A stretch of DNA of 64,000 nt from positions 1,736,001 through 1,800,000 of the forward strand of contig NZ_CP121662.1 of the NCBI RefSeq assembly GCF_029714285.1, in the 5' to 3' direction. The notes beneath the pieces were generated by a model, which saw only the letters and a list, made by a program, of their open reading frames with translations, searched no databases and was not told the origin of the DNA. The position numbers and the translations under genes are program-made. This document shows positions 40,122 to 59,127 of this stretch, one piece after another. Source of the stretch: Rhizobium sp. CB3090. GTDB lineage: Bacteria; Pseudomonadota; Alphaproteobacteria; Rhizobiales; Rhizobiaceae. The first letter of the stretch is position 1; each line of letters begins with the position of its first letter.

Positions 40122-40184
40122 CTTTATCTCACTGAATTTGCGTGTTTTTATGGATATTGACCCTGACCTGTGGTAGTCAGGTTC

Positions 40185-41810
40185 ATGTCAAACGCGAGCC
40201 AAAATCTTCCCGATGATCCGGCCTTCCTGAAGGCGATGATCGCCTCGCTTGAGGCGAAGAACGCGAAGATGTCTGCGACCTTGCAGGCGCATGATCAGTT
40301 GATCCAGTCCCTGCGGCTGCGCATCGCCAGGCTGAAGAAACATGGCTTCGGCAAGTCGTCGGAAAAGATCGAGCGGGAAATCCAGCAGTTGGAACTGGCG
40401 CTCGAGGACCTGATGATTGCCGCTTCGGAAGGCAGCAGCGAGCCACTCGCCGAGGACGAAGAAACGGAGCCTGCCGCGCCTGAGGAAAGCATGCCTGAAA
40501 AGACCATGCGCCGCCGTCCGCGCGTGTCGGACAAGGCCGCTCGCGAGCGCAGGGAACTTGATCCCGGAACGTGCTGCCCCGCTTGTGGTGGCGAACTGCG
40601 GCTTGTCGGCGAAGACGTCAGCAAAATCCTCGACATGATCGCCGCACAGATGAAGGTCATCGAGATCGCCCGGCTGAAGAAGTCCTGCCGCTGCTGCGAG
40701 AAGATGGTGCAGTTGCCCGCGCCCAGCCGTCCGATATCGGGCAGCATGGCGGGCGCTGGTCTTCTGGCCTATATCCTGGTCTCGAAGTTCGACGACCACT
40801 TGCCGCTCTATCGCCTGAACGAAATCTTCGCCCGCATGGGCGTTGATATCCCCGACAGCACGTTGGTCGATTGGTGTGGCCGCGCCATGCAGGTGCTCCT
40901 GCCGCTGATCGAGTTGATCGAAGCCGCGATCATGAGCAGCGACCTTCTCCACGCCGACGACACGCCGATCCGGGTTCTGGATCGTTCTCTACGCGACAAG
41001 GGGCTGGGGAAAGGGGTGAAGAAGGGCAGGCTCTGGACCTATGTCCGGGACCAGCGCCCATGGGCGGGCATAGCTCCGCCCGGTGCGGTCTATTATTTTG
41101 CTCCCGACTGGAAGGAAGAGCACGTTCACCGTCACCTCAAGGAGGCGAGCGGCATCCTTCAGGCCGATGGCTACAAAGGCTATGCGAAGTTATATGAGGC
41201 CGGAACGGACGGGAAACGCCGCTTCCGGGAGGCTTCATGTTGGGCGCATTGGCGGCGCGACTTCCACGATATCTGGACCTCGAACAAATCCGAGATTGCC
41301 CGCGAGGCTCTCGACCGTATCGGCGCGCTTTACGACATCGAGCGCGGCATTGCAGGCAAGTCTGCCGATATCCGTCTTGCCGCGCGCCAGAAGCACAGCA
41401 AGGCAAAGGTCGAAGCATTCCGCGTCTGGGCCGAAGCGCAACTGACCCGTATCCCCGGCAAGAGCGATCTGGCGGGCGCTTTCCGGTACGGCTTGAGCAG
41501 GTGGTCTTCATTCTGCCTGTTCCTGGAAGATGGCCGTGTCGCAATCGATAACAACGCCGCCGAGCGGGCGTTGCGTCCTATCGGCGTTGGAAGACGAAAC
41601 TGGCTCTTCGCGGGTGCCGACACTGGAGCAGAAACCCTGGCGCGGGCCATGACGATTATCGAAACCGCCAAGATGAATGGCCTTGATCCGCAGGCCTATC
41701 TGGCTGATGTGCTCGACCGCATTCAGGATCACAAGATCAATCGCCTCGCGGAGCTGCTTCCATGGAACTGGAAGCCGACAGCGGCAATCATCTGCGCCGA
41801 GGCCGCTTGA
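40185..41810 (+). CDS. tnpC: IS66 transposase TnpC
   Basis: 541 residues from the ATG at 40185. Order of parts: N-terminal coiled coil (ASLEAKNAKMSATLQAHDQLI), zinc-finger (DPGTCCPACGGEL to KKSCRCCEKM), and the DDE domain with LLHADDTPIRVLDR, YKGYAKLYE and the Glu in GRVAIDNNAAERALRPIGV. The C-terminal IS66 region ends at PWNWKPT. All key motifs are intact. Confidence 0.95.
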   Translation: MSNASQNLPDDPAFLKAMIASLEAKNAKMSATLQAHDQLIQSLRLRIARLKKHGFGKSSEKIEREIQQLELALEDLMIAASEGSSEPLAEDEETEPAAPEESMPEKTMRRRPRVSDKAARERRELDPGTCCPACGGELRLVGEDVSKILDMIAAQMKVIEIARLKKSCRCCEKMVQLPAPSRPISGSMAGAGLLAYILVSKFDDHLPLYRLNEIFARMGVDIPDSTLVDWCGRAMQVLLPLIELIEAAIMSSDLLHADDTPIRVLDRSLRDKGLGKGVKKGRLWTYVRDQRPWAGIAPPGAVYYFAPDWKEEHVHRHLKEASGILQADGYKGYAKLYEAGTDGKRRFREASCWAHWRRDFHDIWTSNKSEIAREALDRIGALYDIERGIAGKSADIRLAARQKHSKAKVEAFRVWAEAQLTRIPGKSDLAGAFRYGLSRWSSFCLFLEDGRVAIDNNAAERALRPIGVGRRNWLFAGADTGAETLARAMTIIETAKMNGLDPQAYLADVLDRIQDHKINRLAELLPWNWKPTAAIICAEAA

Positions 41811-42579: not shown

Positions 42580-44868
42580 TCAGTCGAGATCGTCTGCAAG
42601 CGCATCGAGGAAGCTTGAAGCGTCATCGATGATAGGAAGTGCGTGAGGCCTGGCGTTGGCGGGTCTCTCGACACGTACGGAAGCGCTGGCCGCTTTCCTG
42701 AGCTCGTCTATTAGCTTGTTTTTCTGGCGCGTTTCCTGCGCCTTCCGGGCGCCGCGCTGTTGATCCTTGTGGGAGACCAGGGGGGACTTGCGGACAATTG
42801 CCGGCATCTCCTGGGGGATGTCGTATGGAGCATCGCCGTTGATGGTCGGATCGACGGTTCCCATTTCGATGTCGTCGCCCTCGGCCAAGGTATAGACGAC
42901 GAGCTCCCCTTCCGCGGCCACCTTCTTGTTCGCCTTTCTAGCCTGAAGGATCGCACGTTCCGCTCGGGCCAGGTCCCGCGCCCTGTCGCGGAGCCTTAGA
43001 AATTCGCATTTTGCGAGGATCAACTCCTCCTCGCTCACGAAGTGCCTGTCGAGCCTGCGGTCCGCCTCCCTGATGAGTCTGGCTTCATTGTAGCTTAGGC
43101 CCTCGGCGAACCTCGGCTTGCTGTTGGGCAGCCGCACAAATCTGTTCCTTACATGATCTACGATATAGATGTGTGAGCAGTCATGCGGATAGATGATCGC
43201 CTCGACAGCCACCTTTCCGCCCTTCCTCCGGCTGGACCGCATTTCCGCGGGCAGCGTCGCGCGAAGAAAATCTTCAGTCACATCCTTATGGTGGAACACG
43301 TGGGTGTCATAGGCGACTCCCGCCCCATTGAACCACAGCCGCTTGCGGATTCCGCAAAGGATGTCGAAAAGGTCTAACCGCTTCGGCACGGAGCGCCCCA
43401 CCATTGCGTCGTTCACCTTTTCGGACCACAACCTGGCCGGAATACCCTCCAGCGTCCGATTCCTACCGAGATGGTGGACGTTGACGATCCAATGCCACAT
43501 TACCCCAGTAGCGAAATCGAGGGCCCACTGCGCCTTCTCCTCGGGCTTCAGCCTTCGTGCCGCCAGAGCTTGGGGCTTGTATGGTATGCCGCCCGGAGCG
43601 TTGTGCCAGAGGGAATGGTTGTAAGTGTTGAATCCCCTCTCCACGATGGCCTTCGCCTTCGGGGTTCCTTTGGGCGCCAGCTCCATGTCAATGCCTGAGT
43701 CCGCGAGCAGCGTCCGTGAGGAGAATCCGATATTCTCGACGCCATTGTCGAAGGTCATCTCCTTTGGCATGCCACTGCCATCGGTCGCCCCCTTCTTCTT
43801 GCCGAAGCGCTCTATCAGGAAGAGCTTCGGTCGTAGCATCTGCTTGATCGCCAGTTGGACCGTCAATGCCGATGGCTTTTCGAAGGTCAGGATCGCGGCA
43901 AGTATCATGCGAGAGTAGACGTCGAAGATCGAGACGAGCCACGGCCGCCTGCGGTCTTCTATATTGCCGTCCTCGTCGTAGATGTTGATCCAGGTGTCGA
44001 CGAGGGTCTGATCGATCTGGACGCGCTGGAGCGGGAAGTCCGCCGACGCGCCCTTGGCCCTTCCGCCGTATTCCTGCAGGGCTCGACGGGGTTCCCGTTT
44101 GGCGAGTCGCTCCTCGGTCTCCTGTCCCCGGATATGGTCTTCGACGGCCGTGCGTCTCGGATATTTCAGCGATGATTCGCCGCGCTGCTGTCGAGCCCGG
44201 TCCTCCAATATCGCGTCGCCAAGGAACTTGTCCACGACATCCTTGAGCGTCGGAGGTTTCGGAATCCCCTCGCTGTAGAACTCATCGACGGCGTTCTTGA
44301 GCCTCCGCAGGACCCATGGATCGGTCCACTTGCGCTTGCTGTGTGCTCCCCTTTGGCTGATATAATCCGCCAGGCAGCGGTTATGAGGGACGCCCTTCTC
44401 CAATGCGCGACGGAGGGCCGAATAGGACGGCTTGTGAAAGTGGCCCGCCGCCTCCGCGGCGGGGTAGGTTCGGTCAATGAACGCCGTGTAGCCAGCATTG
44501 GATCTGGACACTTCGTCGGGCGCGGCGTCGAAGCGCTTCACGTAGAATAGGAGCATGGCCGCTTCCGCGACCTTCACCTGAGCAGCGTGGATTTTCTTGC
44601 GGGTCTCAAGCGGCGTTTTCGGCAGCGAAGGATCCATTAGCGCGTGGATGTCGATGCGATCCACCCAGTTCGACGAGAGCTGCCGGACCGCAGCCCTGTC
44701 TTTGATCATTTTCGAGAGCTTGCCCTCGTCGAACGGCACGGGTCTTCCCGTAGTCCCGTCGACAAATATCATCTGCCCGCCGGCGACCTGCTTCACGAAG
44801 GTGTACTCCCTCGTGACGCCCTCGAACGGGATACGGTAGCAATCACCTCTCGCGAGCTTTAGTGTCAT
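42580..44868 (-). CDS. tnsB: TnsB/TniA-type DDE transposase
   Basis: 762 residues of the Mu/Tn7 integrase class. The RNase H-fold catalytic triad is visible: Asp286 (LQRVQIDQTLVDTW), Asp374 (EMTFDNGVENIGF) and Glu410 (AKAIVERGFNTYN). A Mu-type C-terminal beta-barrel follows. The N-terminal 250 residues hold DNA-binding helical domains. It would cut and join the 3' ends of the element, with TnsA cutting the 5' ends. It is separated from tnsA by 8 bp. Intact as read. Confidence 0.92.
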   Translation of the reverse strand: MTLKLARGDCYRIPFEGVTREYTFVKQVAGGQMIFVDGTTGRPVPFDEGKLSKMIKDRAAVRQLSSNWVDRIDIHALMDPSLPKTPLETRKKIHAAQVKVAEAAMLLFYVKRFDAAPDEVSRSNAGYTAFIDRTYPAAEAAGHFHKPSYSALRRALEKGVPHNRCLADYISQRGAHSKRKWTDPWVLRRLKNAVDEFYSEGIPKPPTLKDVVDKFLGDAILEDRARQQRGESSLKYPRRTAVEDHIRGQETEERLAKREPRRALQEYGGRAKGASADFPLQRVQIDQTLVDTWINIYDEDGNIEDRRRPWLVSIFDVYSRMILAAILTFEKPSALTVQLAIKQMLRPKLFLIERFGKKKGATDGSGMPKEMTFDNGVENIGFSSRTLLADSGIDMELAPKGTPKAKAIVERGFNTYNHSLWHNAPGGIPYKPQALAARRLKPEEKAQWALDFATGVMWHWIVNVHHLGRNRTLEGIPARLWSEKVNDAMVGRSVPKRLDLFDILCGIRKRLWFNGAGVAYDTHVFHHKDVTEDFLRATLPAEMRSSRRKGGKVAVEAIIYPHDCSHIYIVDHVRNRFVRLPNSKPRFAEGLSYNEARLIREADRRLDRHFVSEEELILAKCEFLRLRDRARDLARAERAILQARKANKKVAAEGELVVYTLAEGDDIEMGTVDPTINGDAPYDIPQEMPAIVRKSPLVSHKDQQRGARKAQETRQKNKLIDELRKAASASVRVERPANARPHALPIIDDASSFLDALADDLD

Positions 44869-44876
44869 GGCCGTGG

Positions 44877-45794
44877 TCAGGAGTTCGTGAGAATCTTCAG
44901 GGAGTTATTCTGCGGAAGCATGACCATTGTCTCGGACGACACCACATCGGTCAGGTCCATCGCCAGGATCCGCCTGACGTGAAGCGCCCTGAGCTTGGCC
45001 CATCCAACAGGTCCGTCCCCCAATGCTGCAACGATCTCCGCGGCGGGTTTGCCCCCGTGCCGAAGTGCCAGCTCGACTGCCCAGACGTCCGTCTGGTTTA
45101 CGTCGGTGTGTCGCCATGAGACAACGCTAGCCGCGATGCCAAGATCGCCCTCGAACAGATCTTCCGCCCTCTGGATGACAGCGAACTCGAAGCCCAGTCT
45201 TCGGTACACCTCCTTGGCCAGTTCCAGCTTGCGAATGTATTTCGGGTCCCACTGACGGGTATCTCGCTCATCCTTGATCTCGACGATGACTATCTTGAGT
45301 AGGTCATCCGGCTCGTCCTGCGAAGGGGCAAGGGCCGCGGTCGAGAACGGAATGCCGTTTCGGAGATCGTCCAGGAACGAAGGATGGACCTTGAGCAGAA
45401 GATCTGGAAAATACCGAAGTGGAGATTTCTGCTCCCGGACGTTGATCTCCAGCCGGTGAGGCTGAGCAAGCAATTTCACCACTCTGCTGGACGCCTCGGC
45501 CAACACCATTGCGGCCTTTTCCCCATGTCGCGACTCCCAGGGCATCTGTGCAAAATCCGCCTTCACCGAGATGAAGAAGCCCGTATATTTCGTCTGACGG
45601 CCGTTCACGATCCGTCGGACTGGCCCTCCGTCGACCGACGTCAGTATCCGCGCGACGGGCTTGGCCTCTCCCAAACGCCGATCCGATCGCAGTTTGACGC
45701 CAGTCGAAGACAGCAGCCTTGCGACCGCCTTCCTGTCGGCTCGGCGAATGCGCTTTGCTTCGGGTTCCACGAGCATCTTACGATCCTTTTCCAT
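44877..45794 (-). CDS. tnsA: TnsA-type endonuclease of a Tn7-like element
   Basis: 305 residues from the ATG at 45794 (AAGGG upstream). The restriction-like fold residues are visible: Glu87 in MPWESRHGEKAAM, Asp131 in LRYFPDLLLKV, and Glu172-x-Lys174 in VIVEIKDERDT. These match TnsA, which cleaves the 5' ends for cut-and-paste transposition. The C-terminal half should contact TnsC. First gene of the transposition operon. The 276 bp upstream (45795-46070) hold no gene and presumably the promoter. Confidence 0.85.
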   Translation of the reverse strand: MEKDRKMLVEPEAKRIRRADRKAVARLLSSTGVKLRSDRRLGEAKPVARILTSVDGGPVRRIVNGRQTKYTGFFISVKADFAQMPWESRHGEKAAMVLAEASSRVVKLLAQPHRLEINVREQKSPLRYFPDLLLKVHPSFLDDLRNGIPFSTAALAPSQDEPDDLLKIVIVEIKDERDTRQWDPKYIRKLELAKEVYRRLGFEFAVIQRAEDLFEGDLGIAASVVSWRHTDVNQTDVWAVELALRHGGKPAAEIVAALGDGPVGWAKLRALHVRRILAMDLTDVVSSETMVMLPQNNSLKILTNS

Positions 45795-46070
45795 GTTGAT
45801 GCCCTTGCACGCGGGCGCACGTGTTCGAACACGCAATACTCGGACCGCCGCAGTCTGACGGATTCAATTTGACCCAAGCGGAGGGCGCAAGCAGACGCTC
45901 CCGGCGGGGCACGCCGGGGAACTATGCCCTCGAAATCGAGGTGCTTGTTTTCAAGCGAGCGACATCCACCAGCAACTTGATCCGGCCGGCTGACTAAAGC
46001 TCCAAATTACTGTAGTGTTACTGCCAAGGTGATTTTCTCAACGCGACTCACCTTCCTTTAGATAATAAAA

Positions 46071-47161: not shown

Positions 47162-47848
47162 TCATACCTTTGTAAGGACCAATCCGTAGAACAGGCCCTT
47201 GCCGGAGGCACTAAGCTCCTGATTGCTCTGGATCGAGCCGCCGAACGCCGCCAGCAGCGCCTTGAGCACCAGTCCCTTCGCTTCCGCCGACGCGCCCATC
47301 TTCATCTGTATCGAATACGTCACGTCGGCGCGAATGGCCTGTTGAGTCTGGTACGCCAGTGACCTCGACGAGAAATCCGCCAGGATCGCCTGGCAGTCGG
47401 GGCCGAGCGTGCTTCGAATATGGTGGAGATCATCGAGGGCCAGTTGTTCGACGGTCACATCCGTCAGCTCCAGCGTGACCGAGTCGACGTAGTTCAGGCT
47501 AGCCCCGAGGCCCATCTTCGTCAGCGTTCCCGGATCGAGTGACAGGGAGGTGCTCAGCGAGCGCGAGGCGGTCTGCGTCGCGGCGGGGTCCACGATCGGT
47601 GGAGGCGCGTGTGTGAAGTCGGGGCGGCACAGATAGGTGAGCTTCAGGGGCGGAGAAAACCCCGTTCCCTTAGCGGACGTCACTAGCGAGCCCGGACCGA
47701 ACGCCGTGGACGGGAGTGCAACCGCGTCGTAGCCCAAGGCCGTGAGGGTCGAGTTAAGATCTGCCGTCTCTTTGGCCTGCTGCTGCCCGATGGTGTTGCA
47801 GGACGTCGCCATCAGGCAGAGCAACAGAAGCATAGCGTGACGTTTCAT
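47162..47848 (-). CDS. Predicted lipoprotein of the caspase island
   Basis: 228 residues with a lipoprotein signal (MKRHAMLLLLCLMATSC), so Cys17 is the likely lipidation site. The mature part begins with TLTALGYDAVALPSTAFGPGSLV, a pattern seen at the start of several secreted proteins of unknown function. Later are repeated helical and Thr/Ser-rich strands (YVDSVTLELTDVTVEQLALD, IRADVTYSIQMKMG). No catalytic motif. It follows the secreted protein at 47966 on the same strand by 117 bp and may be its partner at the membrane. Confidence 0.65.
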   Translation of the reverse strand: MKRHAMLLLLCLMATSCNTIGQQQAKETADLNSTLTALGYDAVALPSTAFGPGSLVTSAKGTGFSPPLKLTYLCRPDFTHAPPPIVDPAATQTASRSLSTSLSLDPGTLTKMGLGASLNYVDSVTLELTDVTVEQLALDDLHHIRSTLGPDCQAILADFSSRSLAYQTQQAIRADVTYSIQMKMGASAEAKGLVLKALLAAFGGSIQSNQELSASGKGLFYGLVLTKV

Positions 47849-47965: not shown

Positions 47966-49072
47966 TCAGTTTCCCGGCTGGATGCTGTCGTAGGCCGCGC
48001 CGAGACGCTGCATCATCTGATGTCGGCGTTCGTGGCCGTAGCTTACGAGCTCACGGGCGATACGTTTTCGTGGGTCTGCTTGGGCGCCAGCCGTCTTGAC
48101 TGCGGCATCCGCCGCGCCTTTCGAGGTGCTCCAGATTCGCGCGACGACAAACGCCTCGTCGGTCGGGTCCACGTTTTTCTCGAAGGCAAGGCGTTCGAGC
48201 GTCGGGTGCCACACTTTCCGCAGCCAGTAATCCACAATCCACTGCTGGACCTCTCTGTCTCGAAGTCCCGCGCGGGCCCAAGTGCGAAGGACCTGCCACC
48301 GTTCTGGATCGAGTTCGTTGGTCGGGTTGTGGTCATGGCAGTACTTCTGGCCACCCCACATAACGGCATCGTGCCGGAAGGGCTCCCCATTCAAATCGGC
48401 CATGATCACGGCAGAATGTCCTGAGCATGGTCCGCCTCTGGCTCTAACTGAGTCGTATCGGAAGCCCTGTCGAAACTGCTTCAGGTCATTTGCGGAGGCG
48501 GGAATGCGCTGCGCTATCTCGTCGAAAAGGTCTTGTGCCATGCCCGTGTCGAGGTGCGGCAGTCCGAGTCCGCCAAGCGCGTAGCTCATCACATGCTTGC
48601 CGACAGTGATGTCTTTCGGCCCCGCCCAGTCCCGCCCAGCAGGATCCTTCGGTGCCGGGCCGTCCCATGCGACACCCCACTCGGCGACAGATACCGCTAA
48701 TGTCAGCTCGCCTAAGGCATCAGTCGCGTCGGCGATGGCCGCATCCGCCTTGTTGCACTCGGGCGGGCGGTCCGACACGGCGCACTTGGCGGCCATGTCG
48801 TGAGCGGTGCGGCGCGCCAACTTGTATGCCTGTATCACCTCGACAATTGTTGCGCCGGGTAGACGCTCATTCTTTCCGTTGTCGTCGGCATTGTCAGACC
48901 AGCCCTGCTCGAGCACTGTCTCGAAAACTTGATTCTTCAAAGGCGAGTCCGCGAGCGCTGGTACCGACGACGGAGAAACGAGGACAAACGAAAGAAGACA
49001 TCGCGACGCAACCCTGGCGTTCCGCAGTGGACCGCACCAGATGGACGACCCAGTTTCGCGAGACAAATGCAT
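47966..49072 (-). CDS. Secreted protein of unknown fold, candidate envelope-acting enzyme
   Basis: 368 residues from an ATG at 49072 with a strong GGGAGG site; a TTG-started longer frame upstream is unlikely. A long signal peptide ends near SSVPALA (residue 40). The body has blocks that look enzymatic: FRYDSVRARGGPCSGHSAVI, HDAVMWGGQKYCHDHNPTNE and WQVLRTWARAGL, with several His and Cys residues that could be catalytic or metal-binding. I do not recognise the family. Its setting beside secreted hydrolases and caspases suggests action in the periplasm. Confidence 0.6.
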   Translation of the reverse strand: MHLSRETGSSIWCGPLRNARVASRCLLSFVLVSPSSVPALADSPLKNQVFETVLEQGWSDNADDNGKNERLPGATIVEVIQAYKLARRTAHDMAAKCAVSDRPPECNKADAAIADATDALGELTLAVSVAEWGVAWDGPAPKDPAGRDWAGPKDITVGKHVMSYALGGLGLPHLDTGMAQDLFDEIAQRIPASANDLKQFRQGFRYDSVRARGGPCSGHSAVIMADLNGEPFRHDAVMWGGQKYCHDHNPTNELDPERWQVLRTWARAGLRDREVQQWIVDYWLRKVWHPTLERLAFEKNVDPTDEAFVVARIWSTSKGAADAAVKTAGAQADPRKRIARELVSYGHERRHQMMQRLGAAYDSIQPGN

Positions 49073-49972: not shown

Positions 49973-51853
49973 CTACTTGCAGGCCTTCTCCCCGGCCGGA
50001 GCGCTCTTGCAGACTGTGATTTTCGCCCCTGAGAGGTTCTCGACCAATTCCTTGCCCTTGCTATATGGAATTTTATTGGCAGCCGAAAGGGCCAGGTCGA
50101 ATTCCTTAGCGGAGATTGCCGCATCTTCTGCAGGCATCGTAAGAGACTGCCCGGCGAGAGCCACACCTAGCCCGAGCTGATAGCGATATGTCTTCCGGGA
50201 GAGCTGGTGTGAGAGAAGCGTAACGATTCGGCCGCGCGTACTCTCCTGTTCCGAGAGCAGCGCTTGTCGGAGGTCTAGTCTCGACTGGTGGCGTGTAGGC
50301 GCATCTTCGGACAAGAGGAGGTCGGTTAGATTTCTGTAACGGTCTAACGCGTCTGGATCCACCGTAACCGAAGTTTCCGGCTGGTCGGTCGGTTTAAGAG
50401 TCAAATCAGAATACTGCTGATAGGCGTCAATCTTGGCCTTGAATTGCGTCGTCGCCTCCCGGACGCTCTGCGCGCCGGGATCGTTATCCTTGCCTGCAAT
50501 GGCCAGAATCGCGTCAGCTTGTTTGACTTGGCTGTTAGCGTCATTTCCGAGAGGGGTGACGTGCCGTGCAAAAACGGAGGACCATTGAGAAGGATCGCCA
50601 GGCAAGTTTCTCACGCTGGTCGTCGTCATGTCGGCACTCAATTCGCTGAGCTGACGGCTATTAAGCGACGTCTTGTAATTCAGGAGGACATCGGCATAGG
50701 TGGCCTTGTCCTTTTGCAAGCCTACTGCCGTGACATCAAACGTAGATGCCTCAACTTGTTTCCAAGCTTCGACAAACCGATCATCTTCGACCAGCGACTG
50801 TAAGGCCGTGTCGTCGCGAAAGAAAACCATGCTCCCTTCTTGATAGTAGATATCATCGGGAAGATATCTGAACACTGGGAAGGCAACTTTGTCAGGGCCT
50901 AGCTTTCTCGAGATTCGTGGCGGTGTCTGACTCTCAAGGTAGGGACCGATTTCCCCGAAAGTCGTCCAGCGTGAGAAGTCGGTAAATTCGGTATTTCGAC
51001 CGAGCAGGATGTCCGACAGCAGATCTGTCATCACGGAGGACGTCGGAGCGACGTCGGTGCCTGTTCCTGCGGCGAGGAAAATACGCGCGGGCTTGCCCGA
51101 ATGCACCAAGGCGAAGAATGGCAAATCAATACCTTCCTTGTCGCTCGGCTTGTAGATCCAGTTGCCCTGCGCGTCCATCGGGAATACATCGGTCTGTTCT
51201 TTTGCCTTCGCGGAGAAGGGTTCAGAAAACTGAGCGTCGGATGGGTTCCCTTCGAATCCGAAGAACGAACCGGAAAAGCACGAGTCAAAAATGAAAAGTA
51301 CGTGCCGGGGATCCGGCATCTCGGCCCAACTGGCAAACATCGAAAGCGGAATCGCACGCTGTGCCACCTCCGTTTCCTCGGCATTCTGCGGATCCTTTGC
51401 GTCAACGGGAACGAAATATCCAACTTTGTATCTGATCATCTGTCGTGTGTAGCCATGCCCACTGAGGTACACGATCAGCCTTGAGTTGTGAATTGTCCCG
51501 TACTTTCGCATGAACTGATCGATGACGCTGATCAGATCAGCCGATTTCAAATCAAAGTGGACCTCCACCTTGAAATGCTGATGTTCAAGTCCCTTAGTCA
51601 GCTTCTTAATTTCTGGCGGGATCAAGGTTAAGCTGTCCCATCCCTCTGTATAGTTGACTTCTCCGACAACGAGAGCGTGGCTTTCGGAGTAATAGATTTC
51701 AGGCTGACCATTGTTATCAGCAATCGTCATAGCCGTAGCGGCGTCTTCAATCGCAGTTTCGTAATATGGCTTCGGCAGCGCATCTTGCGCCAGCACCGTT
51801 CCGGAGGCGCCAAGGCTTAACGCAAAGAGGAGACCGATCACCCCACGCATCAT
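49973..51853 (-). CDS. Secreted caspase-like protease (peptidase C14) with long C-terminal domain
   Basis: 626 residues. Sec signal peptide (MMRGVIGLLFALSLGASGTVLA). The caspase fold at about 55-280 has ALVVGEVNYTEGWDSL, the catalytic His133 in IVYLSGHGYTRQ and Cys192 in LFIFDSCFSGSFFGFEG. The 340-residue C-terminal part is of unknown family, possibly helical repeats (FVEAWKQVEASTFD, NSRQLSELSADMTT). Export makes it a periplasmic caspase, unlike the cytoplasmic caspases of known phage-defence systems. Its start overlaps the stop of the upstream hydrolase gene by 4 bp, so both are translated together. Confidence 0.85.
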   Translation of the reverse strand: MMRGVIGLLFALSLGASGTVLAQDALPKPYYETAIEDAATAMTIADNNGQPEIYYSESHALVVGEVNYTEGWDSLTLIPPEIKKLTKGLEHQHFKVEVHFDLKSADLISVIDQFMRKYGTIHNSRLIVYLSGHGYTRQMIRYKVGYFVPVDAKDPQNAEETEVAQRAIPLSMFASWAEMPDPRHVLFIFDSCFSGSFFGFEGNPSDAQFSEPFSAKAKEQTDVFPMDAQGNWIYKPSDKEGIDLPFFALVHSGKPARIFLAAGTGTDVAPTSSVMTDLLSDILLGRNTEFTDFSRWTTFGEIGPYLESQTPPRISRKLGPDKVAFPVFRYLPDDIYYQEGSMVFFRDDTALQSLVEDDRFVEAWKQVEASTFDVTAVGLQKDKATYADVLLNYKTSLNSRQLSELSADMTTTSVRNLPGDPSQWSSVFARHVTPLGNDANSQVKQADAILAIAGKDNDPGAQSVREATTQFKAKIDAYQQYSDLTLKPTDQPETSVTVDPDALDRYRNLTDLLLSEDAPTRHQSRLDLRQALLSEQESTRGRIVTLLSHQLSRKTYRYQLGLGVALAGQSLTMPAEDAAISAKEFDLALSAANKIPYSKGKELVENLSGAKITVCKSAPAGEKACK

Positions 51854-52596
51854 TTTGTCGGTCTCCGGATTGCGACAAGCCGTTTGGGGCCGGCGTAGAG
51901 CCTGAACTGCTGACGCGAGAGCTGATCATGTTGGTTGCCGCCAACGCACCAGGCTACCGTCTTTTCATCATCTGCCCAGCCGTCGAAGAATGCGACATGT
52001 CCATGGGCGGTATCCCCCACATCCCTAAACACGATAATATCTCCCGTCTTTTCAGGCACAGTGTCTGCCGCAGCCGGATGTTTCTGATCTCCCAGTGCAA
52101 CGGGGAATTTATCGAAGTCTCGATATGAGGCCGACGCCGCACTGCCCGAGCTCGGATAATTGCAGCGGCGCAAGACCCATCCCATGAAGGCCGCGCACCA
52201 AGGCGTGACATCTCCCTCGGGTTTTGTGCTAGTCGCGGCAAAGAACGCCACGATTAGCGGGTTGGCCGGAGACATATTATTCTCGCTCGGCCATTCCCAT
52301 ACCCCGCCATATGTGGGATCTTTCATCATTATCTTGGCAAGCTCGACAGGAGCCTTATCCTTCGGGAGCCCGATGAGGTATTTTGCCGCGTCGATTACAC
52401 GCTGATCGCTTGGCGCGAGTATTCTAGATCCTTTTCCGGGCTCGCTTTCAACGGAGATCCATTCCGCATTGCCAGCGATCCACTCTCTCATTACGCCGAT
52501 GAGTTCATCCTGCTCCTGCGCGAGCGCTCGGCCCGGCAGAAATGCCGCCGTCGCGAGGATCGATGCGGTCCCTAAGTTGAACTGTCTTCTTAGCAC
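51850..52596 (-). CDS. Exported NlpC/P60-like (CHAP-type) peptidoglycan hydrolase
   Basis: 248 residues from a GTG at 52596 that is preceded by GGAGGGG; an ATG four codons upstream lacks a site. The N terminus MLRRQFNLGTASILATAAFLPGRALA (twin Arg, then hydrophobic core) looks like a Tat signal. The enzyme core has the Cys in VTPWCAAFMGWVLRRC, the His in TAHGHVAFFDGW and a further WCVGGNQ strand, as in cysteine amidases/endopeptidases that cleave wall peptides. It forms a two-gene operon with the caspase (ATGA overlap). Confidence 0.82.
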   Translation of the reverse strand: MLRRQFNLGTASILATAAFLPGRALAQEQDELIGVMREWIAGNAEWISVESEPGKGSRILAPSDQRVIDAAKYLIGLPKDKAPVELAKIMMKDPTYGGVWEWPSENNMSPANPLIVAFFAATSTKPEGDVTPWCAAFMGWVLRRCNYPSSGSAASASYRDFDKFPVALGDQKHPAAADTVPEKTGDIIVFRDVGDTAHGHVAFFDGWADDEKTVAWCVGGNQHDQLSRQQFRLYAGPKRLVAIRRPTK

Positions 52597-53776
52597 ATCC
52601 CCCTCCATTTGCTAATTTAGATAATAATGCATTACCTTCGATTGTGTAGTAAATCGAAAAACGCGCAATCTGCTCGCGTGATTTATCAAAAAATTTGAGA
52701 GAAGCCGAGGAATGCAACTTCTTTCGCGACAAAGTAAAATTGGACCGACGGCTTGCGATTACCCATCTTTGGAGGACCCACCAACGCGGCAGATTTAAGT
52801 TACTTAGAGATCGTCGCTCGGCGTTACTTTGTGTGCTGCGCATGATTTTTTAGGTTTCTTACAACCATTCCTAGGCAAACTTCTGCATTTGTCTAGGCAG
52901 TTTCCCGCGCTTCGCAATGAAATCCTACCATCGATAGATCCGGTGTCGATTGGCCCTCGCCTGCCAACGGTCCGCACCTCTATCCCTGCCGTTGCTCTCC
53001 GATGCGATTTTGCATTCGTCGCCCCGGCAGCATGACACTTCGGAGCCATCGCGCCTCCCCAGATCGACAATGTCGTCATCGATGGCCGAGATCCATCCAT
53101 CCCGAGCACGAACTCAGCCACACCTTGTAGTAGTACGATCTTTGCGGAAGATGAAGTTCCGTAACCACATCTTCAATTTCAGCAAAAAGATGGACGCCCG
53201 CGTGAGCCCGCCGAAGAGGGCCGGAAGCAAAGCGGAGCCGCCGCAGGAGATCAACGCGACGACAAGATCGTCTTCGCGCAGCACATGGGCCATGTCCTGG
53301 ATTCGCTGGACGGCTCTCAGACCCGCATCGTCGGGAACCGGATGAGACACCTCGATGATCTGGATCCACTTGTCTCTGCCGCATGTCCATATCGCATGAC
53401 CACAAGCCCCGTAACCGGGTTTAGTCTTATGTCTAACGAGTTTCGACAGGTTGATTTGATGATCGGTGCCGTTTGTTGGGATTTTGGAGGTGCGCCTTGA
53501 GGTCTCAACGATCGAAACTTCGTCTTCCGTATCCCAGTCATAAGACTGCGAACAGGTTCGAAATCCGCGTGCGATGAACGCTGCATTGCTGTCTTGCGAT
53601 CCTTTTATTGGCGCGCGTAATCCAGAATTGCATAATTATTTACCTAATTTGGCTGCCTTTTTTTCCGCCAAACTTCCGCTACCATGACGCGAGCTGAGGG
53701 TCATGAGCTGAGGAGTAGACGAGTATTCTCCGGCAGCGCGGGAAGGCAAAACAAACCACTATTTCAGGAGGACGAG
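52597..53776. other. Divergent control region of the two hydrolase-caspase operons, with gene debris
   Basis: About 1.2 kb between the divergently transcribed hydrolase genes. It must hold both promoters; stretches near 52610-52720 and 53620-53680 are AT-rich and suitable. The only coding trace is a glycerate kinase-like fragment at 53165-53480. No binding-site repeat was recognised. Confidence 0.45.
53165..53480 (-). pseudogene. Glycerate 2-kinase/hydroxypyruvate reductase (TtuD-like) fragment, frameshifted
   Basis: One minus-strand frame gives GLVVMRYGHAAE; a second continues with VSHPVPDDAGLRAVQRIQDM and DDLVVALISCGGSALLPALF. Together they match the GLVVTRYGHA...HPVPDAAG...LISGGGSALLPAP signature of MOFRL-family glycerate 2-kinases. 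A frameshift separates the two parts, and the rest of the gene is absent. Confidence 0.65.
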
Positions 53777-54625
53777 ATGAATAGGCGTGAGATTTTGCGA
53801 GGTTTGGCATGCATTTCCTTCTTGTCATCAAATATTAAATATGCCTTGTCTGAAGACCAAACGCTAGCTTCTTCGATTGATAGCAGGCTGGACGCCCTAT
53901 CGAATAATCCAAGACTTATAGACTTGTTGCGCCAAGTCGGGCCTTCAGAGGGAGTTACATTCCTACGAGGTATATTGACTCATGGTATTGCAGGGCGGCA
54001 CAGATCAGATAGGCCGATTTCTGAGCGAGCTAAAAAATTAATCGTCACATTCGAAGTATCCAACGAGAAACACTACACTGCCTCCTTACAGAAGCTAACC
54101 TGGCCTTACGGTAGCTCCGGCCCGACGCTGGGAATTGGATACGACATCGGTTACGTTAACAAAAAGATATTCGACGAGGACTGGACGGACTATATCGACA
54201 AAAATCGGATTGATGTCATTTCGGCCGGTTGTGGCCTTACCGCTGCCAATGGTAGGGACTTTGTCAAGAAGAATCAGCAAGTGTCGATATCTTGGGATGA
54301 AGCGAACAAGCAATTCCGCGATCAGATGTCGCCGTTTCTTGTTGGAGAGACTTTAGCTGCCCTCCCCAAAAACGCCGAGCAGCTATCGCCAGACAGTTTA
54401 GGCGCCCTGTGTTCGCTCGTCTACAACCGCGGCGCCAGTTTTCAAGTCGCGGATGATCGGCACACCGAAATGCGGAACATCCGCCGGCTAATTGCTCAAG
54501 GTCGGTTTAAAGACGTTCCAAACGAAATAACCAATATGAAACGCATATGGCGGGGCGTCCCCAACATGGAAGGACTTCTGATCCGTCGTGACCTGGAAGC
54601 TAAGCTTTTCCGGGCTGGCTTATGA
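53777..54625 (+). CDS. Exported lysozyme-like (GH24-type) protein
   Basis: 282 residues from the ATG at 53777 after CAGGAGG. The N terminus MNRREILRGLACISFLSSNI has an RR-x-x-L pattern suggesting Tat or Sec export. The core resembles phage/pesticin-type lysozymes: KLIVTFEVSNEKHY (candidate catalytic Glu), SGPTLGIGYDIGY, LGALCSLVYNRGASF, and GLLIRRDLEAKLF at the end. Predicted to cut peptidoglycan glycan strands. It is followed after 31 bp by a caspase gene on the same strand, mirroring the operon on the other side. Confidence 0.75.
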   Translation: MNRREILRGLACISFLSSNIKYALSEDQTLASSIDSRLDALSNNPRLIDLLRQVGPSEGVTFLRGILTHGIAGRHRSDRPISERAKKLIVTFEVSNEKHYTASLQKLTWPYGSSGPTLGIGYDIGYVNKKIFDEDWTDYIDKNRIDVISAGCGLTAANGRDFVKKNQQVSISWDEANKQFRDQMSPFLVGETLAALPKNAEQLSPDSLGALCSLVYNRGASFQVADDRHTEMRNIRRLIAQGRFKDVPNEITNMKRIWRGVPNMEGLLIRRDLEAKLFRAGL

Positions 54626-54656
54626 TCAACAGGATGTCTGTGGGAGGACTCACACC

Positions 54657-55937
54657 ATGCGCTTGCTTCAAATTGCGTTATTGTTGTTGGCGTATCTATG
54701 CACATTCTCATCCGCGTATGCTGAGCGAAGAGCGGTAGTAATCGGGATCAAAGACTACCAAAACAATGGTATACCGCATCTAGTAAACAGCTTAACCGAT
54801 GCTGATCTGATTTCCCAAAAACTATCGTCCGTAGGTTTTAACGTCAGCGTTCTAAAAAACGAAGATGCAACGGCTCCAAAGTTCGCCACCTTTTGGCAGG
54901 GTTTTAAAGAAAATACAAATCCTGGCGACGAAGTCGTCATTTATTTTTCTGGACATGGTTTCTCCAAGGACGGCTCGAACTTCATTGCGCTGCAGGACAT
55001 GCCATCGCCCACAAGTGATATGCCATTTTCAAAGTTGAGAACGAAGCTGATTAACATCACCGATTTGTCCAGAGAATTAGAAGAACTTGATGTACAAATC
55101 GGAGTGATAATACTTGAAGCATGTCGCGAGAATATCTTTGATCCTTCGACCCACGCCCCCATAGGTTCTGGAGGGCTCGTTGTCAAAACGGAAAATAGAG
55201 GTACGGTGATTTGGTATGCCGCATCAAACGGAGAGGTAGCAAAAGATTCTGACGCGACGGATTCCGTTTCGAAGGGATCAACATTCACAAGAGTGATTGT
55301 CGATAATTTCGATCAATACAAAACTACCGACATCGAGCGCTTCGGAAAAGAGATGCGCAAACCCGTGTATGATGCCGCGCAACCCATTGCCCAACATTCT
55401 GAAATGGCGTCTAACATATTTTTTGACTGGTGCTTCACCAGTTGCGGTACAACTACGCAAGCTTTGTCTGTTAAAGTGTTTAACGCCGATAGACCTAGCT
55501 TAGCGAGCTATAGCGCCGTTTCCGAGGAAAAACTCACGAATTTCATCGCATCCCAAGATTTGGTCAGTAATAATACCATTCACGTCGTGCCGATCGACCC
55601 AAAATTTGCAAACGTGCGGTTGTACCCCAAATACTCCGGCAATAATCAACTTCAGGCAGCGACGGGGATTATTGCTAAGCTTCAGGAGTCTGGAATTTAT
55701 GCGGCGACACCGGATCAAGATGATATTGGCCTGTGCAAAAAGTACTCGGTCCCAACCGTCATCTATCACGCGGATCAGGAGAAAGATGCAGCGCAGGCAT
55801 CCGCGGATCTAGTAACCGCTGCAATCTCCGCGGTTGAAAACCAGTCCCACATCACAGCCGCTACCGAGCAGCATCCAGAATCGACCGGCAAATTTACACC
55901 TTTTAGATTTGCCTTATGCATGTCGGGCCTTCGCTGA
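54657..55937 (+). CDS. Secreted caspase-like protease (peptidase C14)
   Basis: 426 residues from the ATG at 54657 (GGGAGG upstream). Sec signal peptide MRLLQIALLLLAYLCTFSSAYA. Caspase fold begins directly after it: ERRAVVIGIKDYQ, the catalytic His100 in VVIYFSGHGFSKD and Cys156 in GVIILEACRENIF. The region after residue 260 is of unknown family, and its cysteines (FFDWCFTSCG) could form disulfides in the periplasm. Second gene of a hydrolase-caspase operon. Only partly similar to the caspase at 49973, so the two modules are related in plan but not recent duplicates. Confidence 0.85.
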   Translation: MRLLQIALLLLAYLCTFSSAYAERRAVVIGIKDYQNNGIPHLVNSLTDADLISQKLSSVGFNVSVLKNEDATAPKFATFWQGFKENTNPGDEVVIYFSGHGFSKDGSNFIALQDMPSPTSDMPFSKLRTKLINITDLSRELEELDVQIGVIILEACRENIFDPSTHAPIGSGGLVVKTENRGTVIWYAASNGEVAKDSDATDSVSKGSTFTRVIVDNFDQYKTTDIERFGKEMRKPVYDAAQPIAQHSEMASNIFFDWCFTSCGTTTQALSVKVFNADRPSLASYSAVSEEKLTNFIASQDLVSNNTIHVVPIDPKFANVRLYPKYSGNNQLQAATGIIAKLQESGIYAATPDQDDIGLCKKYSVPTVIYHADQEKDAAQASADLVTAAISAVENQSHITAATEQHPESTGKFTPFRFALCMSGLR

Positions 55938-57423: not shown

Positions 57424-57468
57424 CATTATTCAATTGAAAATACAGGGGAAATCTGATCGAATGGCTTG

Positions 57469-59127
57469 ATGATCTCAAAGCCTGTCGATCTTCCTGCGGA
57501 TGTTGTTGGCGCTTATCTGGCGCTGCGTGGCGAGCATGAAGCCTTGCAGGTTAAACACGCTATCGCCGTCGCGGAAGCCGCCAATGCGCAGGCGATGCTC
57601 TCTGACAACGAGGCGCTGATCGTTGCTCTGGAATTGAAGATCGAGAAGCTCAGGCGCGAGTTGCGGGGCCAGCGCTCTGAGCGCACGGCGCGCCTGCTCG
57701 ACCAGTTGGAACTGCAACTCGAGGAACTCGTGGCGGCGGCGACGGAGGATGAGGTCGCGGCACAAGCAGCAAGCGCCAGAACCTCGAGCGTACGTTCGTT
57801 CACGCGCAAACGGCCGGTGCGCAAACCATGGCCGGACGATATCGAGCGCGAACGTATCGTCATCGAGCCGCCGACGACTTGCGCCTGCTGTGGTGGTTCG
57901 CGCCTGTCGAAGCTGGGCGAGGACGTCACCGAGACGCTGGAGGAGATCCCACGCCGGTTCAAAGTGATCGAGACGGTGCGGGAAAAATTTACCTGCCGTG
58001 ACTGTGAGGCGATCAGTCAGCCGCCGGCACCCTTCCATGCCACGCCGCGCGGCTTTATCGGACCGAACCTGCTGGCGACGATCCTCTTCGACAAGTTCGG
58101 CATGCACAGCCCGCTCAACCGGCAGAGTGCCCGGTTCAAATGCGAGGGCATCGATCTTTCGACCTCGACGCTGGCCGACCAGGTCGGGTACGCAACAGCC
58201 GCTCTCATGCCTGTCTTCGATCTGATCGAGGCGCATGTCTTCGCGGCCGAGCGTCTTCACGGTGATGACACCACCATTCCCATTCAGGCCAAGGACAAAT
58301 GCGTGACCGGGCGCATATGGACTTACGTCCGGGCCGATCAGCCGTTCGGGGGAACGGATGCGCCGGCGGCGATCTATTATGCGTCGAGTGACCGGCGCGG
58401 CGAACATCCGCAGAAACACCTGGCCGGATACGGCGGCATTCTGCAGAGCGATTGCTACAATGGCTTCGAGCCGATCGCTGTTGCCGCAACGAAAGAGGTC
58501 CCGATCACATTCGCCTTTTGCCACGCGCATGCGCGGCGGAAGTTCTTTGAGCTGGCCGATATCCAGAAAAATGCTCGGGATCACAAGCGGAGGGGCAAGC
58601 CGATCTCGCCGATCGCATTGGAAGCCGTCAAGCGCTATGACGAGTTGTTCGAAATCGAGCGCCAGATCAACGGATTGAGCGCCGAAGAACGACTGGCTGT
58701 GCGGCAGGAGAAGAGCAAGCCACTGTTCGATGACATGCACGAGTGGTTGACGAAGGAGCGCGCCACGCTCAGCAGATCGTCCGAGGTCATCGAGCCGATC
58801 GATTACATGCTCAAGCGCTGGGAGGGCTTTGCTCTCTTCCTCGAAGATGGAAGGGTCTGTCTTACGAACAATGCAGCGGAAAGAGCGTTGCGCGGTGTGG
58901 CGTTAGGAAGGAAAAACTGGACCTTCGCCGGTTCTCAGCGCGGGGCCGATCGTGCCGCTGTCATGCTGACCGTCATCACCACCTGCCGCCTCAACGACGT
59001 CGACCCAAAGGCGTGGCTTGCAGACGTGCTGGCTCGCATCGCCGACCATCCTGTCACGCGCCTGTACGAACTGCTGCCCTGGGAGTGGAAACGTGCATCG
59101 GCGGCAACCGTCATGCTGGCGGCCTGA
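57469..59127 (+). CDS. tnpC: IS66 transposase TnpC
   Basis: 552 residues from the ATG at 57469. Coiled coil at about 20-70, zinc-finger PPTTCACCGGSRL to FTCRDCEAI, DDE domain with RLHGDDTTIPIQ, SDCYNGFEPIAV and the Glu in DGRVCLTNNAAERALRGVAL, and C-terminal PWEWKRA. Complete. Confidence 0.95.
   Translation: MISKPVDLPADVVGAYLALRGEHEALQVKHAIAVAEAANAQAMLSDNEALIVALELKIEKLRRELRGQRSERTARLLDQLELQLEELVAAATEDEVAAQAASARTSSVRSFTRKRPVRKPWPDDIERERIVIEPPTTCACCGGSRLSKLGEDVTETLEEIPRRFKVIETVREKFTCRDCEAISQPPAPFHATPRGFIGPNLLATILFDKFGMHSPLNRQSARFKCEGIDLSTSTLADQVGYATAALMPVFDLIEAHVFAAERLHGDDTTIPIQAKDKCVTGRIWTYVRADQPFGGTDAPAAIYYASSDRRGEHPQKHLAGYGGILQSDCYNGFEPIAVAATKEVPITFAFCHAHARRKFFELADIQKNARDHKRRGKPISPIALEAVKRYDELFEIERQINGLSAEERLAVRQEKSKPLFDDMHEWLTKERATLSRSSEVIEPIDYMLKRWEGFALFLEDGRVCLTNNAAERALRGVALGRKNWTFAGSQRGADRAAVMLTVITTCRLNDVDPKAWLADVLARIADHPVTRLYELLPWEWKRASAATVMLAA

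Follow-up and report, generated by a model that had tools for sequence, protein, structure and literature searches.

Divergent gene pairs of exported-looking wall hydrolases and caspases beside a gasdermin-like lipoprotein in Rhizobium sp. CB3090: a possible envelope-side self-lysis module

A stretch of 64,000 nucleotides from the soil bacterium Rhizobium sp. CB3090 (contig NZ_CP121662.1, positions 1,736,001 to 1,800,000; hereafter the window) contains two divergent operons, each of which combines an exported-looking cell wall hydrolase with an exported-looking caspase homologue. Next to them lie the genes of a gasdermin-like lipoprotein and of an exported-looking conserved protein, LYS48. We propose, with a probability of about 0.5, that this cluster encodes a self-lysis module acting on the envelope side, with exported proteases that release exported wall hydrolases from a latent state and a lipoprotein gasdermin that opens a membrane. 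The genes in question, with lengths in amino acids (aa) and starts of the listed open reading frames (ORFs) where these differ, are:

49973-51853, minus strand: caspase A (Peptidase_C14), 626 aa, signal-like N-terminus, His133/Cys192
51850-52608, minus strand: CHAP wall hydrolase, 252 aa, twin-arginine signal-like N-terminus, Cys138/His204
53777-54625, plus strand: GH24-type lysozyme, 282 aa if read from the in-frame ATG (53777; listed ORF start 53684), twin-arginine signal-like N-terminus
54657-55937, plus strand: caspase B (Peptidase_C14), 426 aa (listed ORF start 54588), signal-like N-terminus, His100/Cys156
47162-47848, minus strand: gasdermin-like lipoprotein pore protein, 228 aa, lipobox Cys17
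47966-49072, minus strand: LYS48, exported-looking conserved protein without assigned family, 368 aa if read from the ATG (49072; ORF to 49321)

The four hydrolase and caspase genes had been described in a first-pass annotation of the sequence. Their positions and strands, the 4 bp overlap between the minus-strand CHAP and caspase A genes and the 31 bp gap between the plus-strand lysozyme and caspase B genes were confirmed, and the catalytic residues it named for the CHAP enzyme and both caspases are correct. It overlooked the lipoprotein gasdermin and LYS48 next door, so that the cluster reaches beyond its limits, to 47162. Its NlpC/P60-like hydrolase is indeed a predicted wall hydrolase, which Pfam assigns to CHAP instead; CHAP and NlpC/P60 belong to one superfamily.

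Both hydrolases score just above the Pfam cut-off (CHAP 27.5 bits, cut-off 26; Phage_lysozyme 25.5 bits, cut-off 22.3) and possess the domain and catalytic residues of their respective families, CHAP and GH24, from which their activity is predicted. Their N-termini start with a twin arginine and a hydrophobic run. The twin arginine is invariant together with Cys138 and His204 in all six aligned CHAP relatives, and together with Glu93 in all four aligned GH24 relatives, which fits export through the twin-arginine translocation (Tat) pathway. Between the signal and the catalytic domain lie approximately 100 residues in the CHAP protein and 60 in the lysozyme, and these segments could be pro-regions. 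A GH24 relative in Methylobacterium indicum (L079, 4311-5873) is part of a 520-aa protein.

Caspases A and B belong to Peptidase_C14 (44.6 and 71.0 bits, respectively; cut-off 21.4) and have its His-Cys dyad, with His133 and Cys192 invariant in five aligned relatives of caspase A, and His100 and Cys156 in seven of caspase B. Judged by hydropathy and by reading, both appear to start with Sec-like signals. The CB3090 genome (6.49 Mb, four contigs) holds three Peptidase_C14 matches in total, two of which are at this cluster. A caspase B profile matched 163 of 397 genomes of the order; this number does not measure the pair, because the listed matches outside the window extend at most to profile position 320 of 435. 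No relative was confirmed when genome contigs were scanned with the caspase B alignment.

The first-pass annotation had suggested a search for hydrolase-caspase neighbours across genomes, and in the records examined the hydrolase-protease plan does recur, for CHAP, for GH24 and as caspase-GH25 fusions at six loci. A tblastn search of plasmids with the CHAP protein gave 15 records, of which the 11 with at least 60% query coverage were opened at their best place only. In six of these, the CHAP relative lies directly upstream of a protease gene: a caspase in four (L048, L049, L050 and L084, the last three of which share similar surroundings and are not independent) and a trypsin-like protease in two, namely Methylobacterium oryzae (L082, above the Pfam cut-off) and R. 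leguminosarum OyaliB (L083, just below it). For the GH24 lysozyme, five of nine tblastn records were opened. A trypsin-like gene precedes the GH24 relative with a 4 bp overlap in Mesorhizobium AR07, and a weakly trypsin-like gene is divergent from it in Rhizobium BT03; no protease was recognised near the GH24 relatives of P. putida, Rhodovastum and Methylobacterium indicum. Such swapping of caspase and trypsin-like protease beside the same hydrolase is, by analogy, the behaviour of cytoplasmic pro-enzyme/protease pairs. A third type of partner may be P0117, a putative hydrolase that looks exported, has Cys and His motifs and matches no Pfam family; it directly precedes a caspase in a genome of the same family (L005), as do its relatives in R. 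lusitanum p_4 and Rhizobium ASV8, which makes three loci. On S. medicae pSMED03 (L074, 4141-5861), the gene after an exported-looking GH24 lysozyme encodes a protein of 306 aa that weakly matches Peptidase_M48; the gasdermin gene is a few kb away, across the record start.

At six loci (L035, L036, L044, L047, L052 and L076), a caspase domain and a GH25 lysozyme are encoded in a single ORF, and at a seventh (L077) a split copy has the caspase and GH25 halves as separate ORFs. A stand-alone GH25 gene lies just upstream at all seven. The catalytic His and Cys motifs of the fusion are kept in all five copies inspected (L076 and L077 were outside this set). Among four fusions tested against Pfam, both domains are above the cut-off in L047 and L076, the caspase falls below it in L035, and L044 gives GH25 only; in profile comparison, the fusion matched the two caspase alignments with 80% and 65% probability. 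A profile of the fusion matches 267 of 297 genomes, a number swamped by GH25, and no full-length fusion is among the matches listed, all of which start at profile position 344 or later. Five pairwise comparisons of gasdermin, fusion, caspase and LYS48 genes gave ratios of non-synonymous to synonymous substitution (dN/dS) of 0.06-0.28; these genes are therefore kept. It is difficult to account for a caspase-lysozyme fusion unless the two are functionally linked. On R. ruizarguesonis pRL10 (L052; 9117-12422 and 6917-7942), a LYS48 relative, a CHAT-TPR gene, a GH25 gene and the caspase-GH25 fusion are found within approximately 10 kb, with no gasdermin detected.

As a control, 40 caspase loci from the same family were taken, one per genome, from the top of a listing ranked by E-value, a choice biased towards canonical caspases. 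Within flanks of approximately 1.1-3 kb, none of the 40 has a CHAP, GH24, GH25, LYS48 or P0117-type gene. The local hidden Markov models of hydrolases and caspases were partly built from the focal loci, and their scores there are not independent. A Pfam check of 19 same-strand ORFs within 200 bp of control caspases (crude gene caller; 25 of 28 families listed) found prolidase, adenylosuccinate synthetase, RNA polymerase and the like, and one Peptidase_M23, a family that often represents wall endopeptidases. The first-pass annotation had set the exported caspases apart from known bacterial defence caspases, described as cytoplasmic. This view is too narrow: 28 of the 40 control caspases also reach the hydropathy score of 2.4 used as signal mark, so signal-bearing caspases look common in rhizobia and caspase export alone is unremarkable; the metacaspase-amidase fusions known since 2012 (PMC3501461) also count against it. 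Judged from sequence, exported-looking caspases are ordinary in this family, and their pairing with a hydrolase is not.

The lipoprotein carries a lipobox-type signal whose Cys17 is invariant in 40 of 40 alignment rows. Its predicted structure has the pore-forming gasdermin fold and best matches bacterial gasdermins (bGSDMs). By sequence, the PADLOC bGSDM profile matches 30 of 40 relatives at E-values up to 0.1 (best 1.7e-6), whereas the PDB search noted below gave no match. Its last residue, 228, aligns to residue 218 of PDB chain 7n50, which extends further; the inhibitory residues of the 7n50 protein are 245-258 (PMC10989679; this and the other papers named below are cited from excerpts). 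We class the lipoprotein as gasdermin-like and not as a characterised bGSDM because this short C-terminal inhibitory peptide is missing; with no tail in the predicted alignment, activation by tail removal is probably not how it is switched on. A second mark of characterised bGSDMs, the palmitoylated N-terminal Cys of a cytoplasmic protein, is replaced here by the lipobox-type signal, which predicts another location.

Eleven distinct loci with the lipoprotein gasdermin were examined, some of them shortened by contig or record ends: the window, L035, L036, L037, L041 (= L038), L042 (= L039), L040, L044, L045 with L075, L046 with L074, and L047. A caspase-domain gene lies within approximately 10 kb of the gasdermin at six of the 11 loci, and a CHAP, GH24 or GH25 gene lies near it at six of the 11; the gasdermin is present at four of the seven fusion loci. 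Within the genus, it occurs in four of 148 genomes (CB3090 and, as identified by coordinates, R. lusitanum, BK418 and ASV8), with caspases alongside in all four; in the family, it occurs in three of 297. The best comparison is Rhizobium sp. BK418, which retains LYS48 (92%) and gasdermin (94%), has a different caspase in the upstream slot (31% identical over 280 residues) and carries GH25 plus caspase-GH25 in its divergent operon in place of GH24 plus caspase B; the plan thus stays constant and the parts change. In BK418, caspase and LYS48 are separated by a DUF4956 membrane-type gene (L035, 5508-6182). On R. leguminosarum Tp73_4 (L075, 421-10142 in record coordinates), three long caspase-family genes lie at distances of approximately 1-10 kb from the lipoprotein gasdermin, in a group that spans the point at which the circular record begins.

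LYS48 has, by reading, a signal-like N-terminus, and relatives at L035 (BK418), L052, L053 and L076. It matches no Pfam family above cut-off and, with its A5 profile, no PDB entry; it also bears no likeness to the GH24 profile, and the suspicion, raised by eye, that it is a lysozyme was discarded, with no enzyme class assigned. In Variovorax (L053, 5854-6948), a LYS48 relative adjoins Dpd-like and type I-E CRISPR genes. Patterns of LYS48 (24 stretches) and of the gasdermin (41 stretches) matched viral contigs and no relative was confirmed, so a phage origin was not retained for these two proteins, the caspase and hydrolase queries not having been run there.

The surroundings of the cluster contain the following mobile elements:

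52609-53776, no strand: inter-operon region, with an IS3-like remnant at 53422-53472
42580-45836, minus strand: TnsB-like (rve) and TnsA-like genes of a Tn7-like element, adjoining the gasdermin gene, both below the Pfam cut-off
40170-41810 and 57466-59127, plus strand: two IS66 transposase genes, one on each side of the region

Megablast of the region hit 21 plasmid records. In the 20 that were listed, only the IS3-like stretch matched, over 47-51 bases, and four of them annotate it as IS3 transposase; transfer of the region as a whole is not seen there. The TnsA and TnsB queries had no match in eight gasdermin loci, and the idea that the cluster is Tn7-like cargo was dropped. PADLOC detected only generic caspase and bGSDM matches in the window.

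Under the proposed module, the hydrolases would be exported folded via Tat and remain latent, restrained by the segment ahead of the catalytic domain. Each Sec-exported caspase would sense an envelope event via its C-terminal part and cut its partner hydrolase loose. The wall would be opened while the lipid-anchored gasdermin perforates a membrane from the periplasmic side, and pore and wall enzyme would jointly lyse the cell, as phage holin and endolysin do. The likeliest use would be the killing of a phage-hit or envelope-damaged cell, in which the cleavage, trigger, target membrane and role in defence are our suggestions. In a more specific form, which we advance only tentatively, this would be a periplasmic pyroptosis-like device: wall hydrolases exported beforehand would be unlocked by exported caspases or trypsin-like proteases, a tail-less lipoprotein gasdermin would perforate the inner or outer membrane from its periplasmic face, and lysis of the holin-endolysin type would be placed under protease control, with swappable parts spread among rhizobia on plasmids and islands.

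Parts of this plan are known from other systems. Known bGSDM systems with a paired protease share the predicted gasdermin-type pore fold, and protease genes lie alongside at six of the 11 loci here; known bGSDMs reside in the cytoplasm, carry a palmitoyl group near the N-terminus and are released when a C-terminal peptide is cut off (PMC10989679), whereas the present protein has a lipobox signal, no such tail, exported-looking proteases and adjoining wall hydrolases. Canu and trypsin-nuclease pairs, in which the caspase or trypsin-like protease of the pair activates a pro-nuclease in cytoplasmic defence, likewise place a hydrolytic effector gene beside a swappable protease of these two kinds (PMC12799240). 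Their effector is an MBL-type nuclease, in contrast to the CHAP and GH24 wall hydrolases found beside the caspases here, where both partners look exported and activation by cleavage is presumed. The first-pass annotation knew of no described system with this layout. Its novelty is lowered by a 2012 survey of metacaspases reporting caspase homologues fused to, or in an operon with, a peptidoglycan hydrolase, including metacaspase-amidase fusions (PMC3501461). The hydrolase there is Amidase_2, as opposed to the CHAP, GH24, GH25, trypsin-like swaps and gasdermin-like lipoprotein here. A laboratory precedent for joint action is mammalian gasdermin D, which helps endolysin to cross the Gram-negative outer membrane (PMC11748493). 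Among the papers listed from the open-licence PubMed Central literature, which covers the primary literature on bacterial gasdermins only in part, none was recognised that describes a lipoprotein gasdermin or exported protease-hydrolase pairs.

Phage holin-endolysin cassettes combine a membrane pore with a wall hydrolase, the outcome proposed here; the cluster differs in its gasdermin-like lipoprotein pore, hydrolases with their own signals and added proteases, and its gasdermin and LYS48 had no confirmed relatives in the viral contigs matched.

Several observations weigh against the proposed module. It is built on genes, their order, residues, signal-like N-termini, a predicted fold and recurrence with swapped partners, from which we infer cleavage, lysis and defence; export was called from hydropathy and N-termini read by eye, so localisation is predicted. 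The gasdermin assignment comes from the fold, with TM-scores of 0.31-0.45, and its A3 profile has no match among PDB chains at E-values up to 1, while structure prediction for two LYS48 sequences gave no usable fold (predicted local distance difference test score, pLDDT, 34). Five of the 11 CHAP records have no recognised adjoining protease (two are rhizobial plasmids whose CHAP genes have identical neighbours, and three are P. aeruginosa plasmids, two of them sharing a neighbourhood), and one pair of these records keeps the twin-arginine signal. The gasdermin has neither caspase nor CHAP, GH24 or GH25 gene nearby at four of its 11 loci (Mesorhizobium twice, Pseudaminobacter and Aquabacter), and at three of the seven fusion loci (L052, L076 and L077) no gasdermin was found in the stretch examined. 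Outside the window, distant relatives of caspase A occur at six places in the 397 genomes of the order, and a candidate hydrolase stands beside one of them (L005), the other five having been judged from ORF starts in 1.5-kb flanks. The first-pass annotation had regarded a general lack of neighbouring hydrolases as fatal to its reading: such a lack is what the controls (0/40) and the caspase A relatives (1/6) display, but the pairing recurs in particular lineages, to which the hydrolase link is therefore confined.

The loci with gasdermin alone (4/11) and the pairs or fusions without a detected gasdermin (CHAP-caspase pairs L048-L050; fusions L052, L076 and L077) are what would be expected if the protease-hydrolase pairs are real two-gene units and the gasdermin and LYS48 form a system of their own, both co-located since defence-like genes gather in a mobile island, as the insertion sequences nearby would suggest. 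Given that caspases stand beside the gasdermin at all four genus loci and that BK418 repeats the plan with other parts, we regard this separation as somewhat unlikely. Less probable still is that chance alone grouped the genes in an insertion-rich island: the IS66 genes and IS3 remnant lie near the cluster, yet pairs turn up on different plasmids, and fusions occur as well, compared with none at 40 control loci, which leaves chance scarcely credible.

Other explanations accept the link and change its purpose. Lysis might serve the release of gene transfer agents (GTAs) or prophage particles, the killing of competitors after release, or development, for instance in nodules, from which many carriers were isolated. 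The immunity-like LypABC controls GTA lysis in Caulobacter, also an alphaproteobacterium (PMC13236601), and the GH24 lysozyme has a sub-cut-off Pfam match to Pesticin. Still, none of the genes next to the pairs could be recognised as belonging to a phage or GTA, gasdermin and LYS48 lack confirmed relatives in viral contigs, and a location on plasmids and islands fits defence equally; we consider a non-defence role unlikely. In ordinary wall remodelling or envelope quality control, caspases would trim or degrade the hydrolases as a negative control, not activate them. Exported caspases are common in the family and the direction of control is not readable from sequence, but the patchy distribution on plasmids and islands (gasdermin in 3/297 family genomes) and the caspase-lysozyme fusion make such a housekeeping role quite improbable.

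If the proposed self-lysis module is real, bacterial gasdermin-caspase death would not be limited to the cytoplasm, and protease and effectors would sit where a phage first touches the cell. The cell wall would become a programmed target, and lysis would have a route additional to those through phage lysis genes and cytoplasmic gasdermins. The module would also provide tail-less gasdermins, and some of the many exported-looking rhizobial caspases would have a function.

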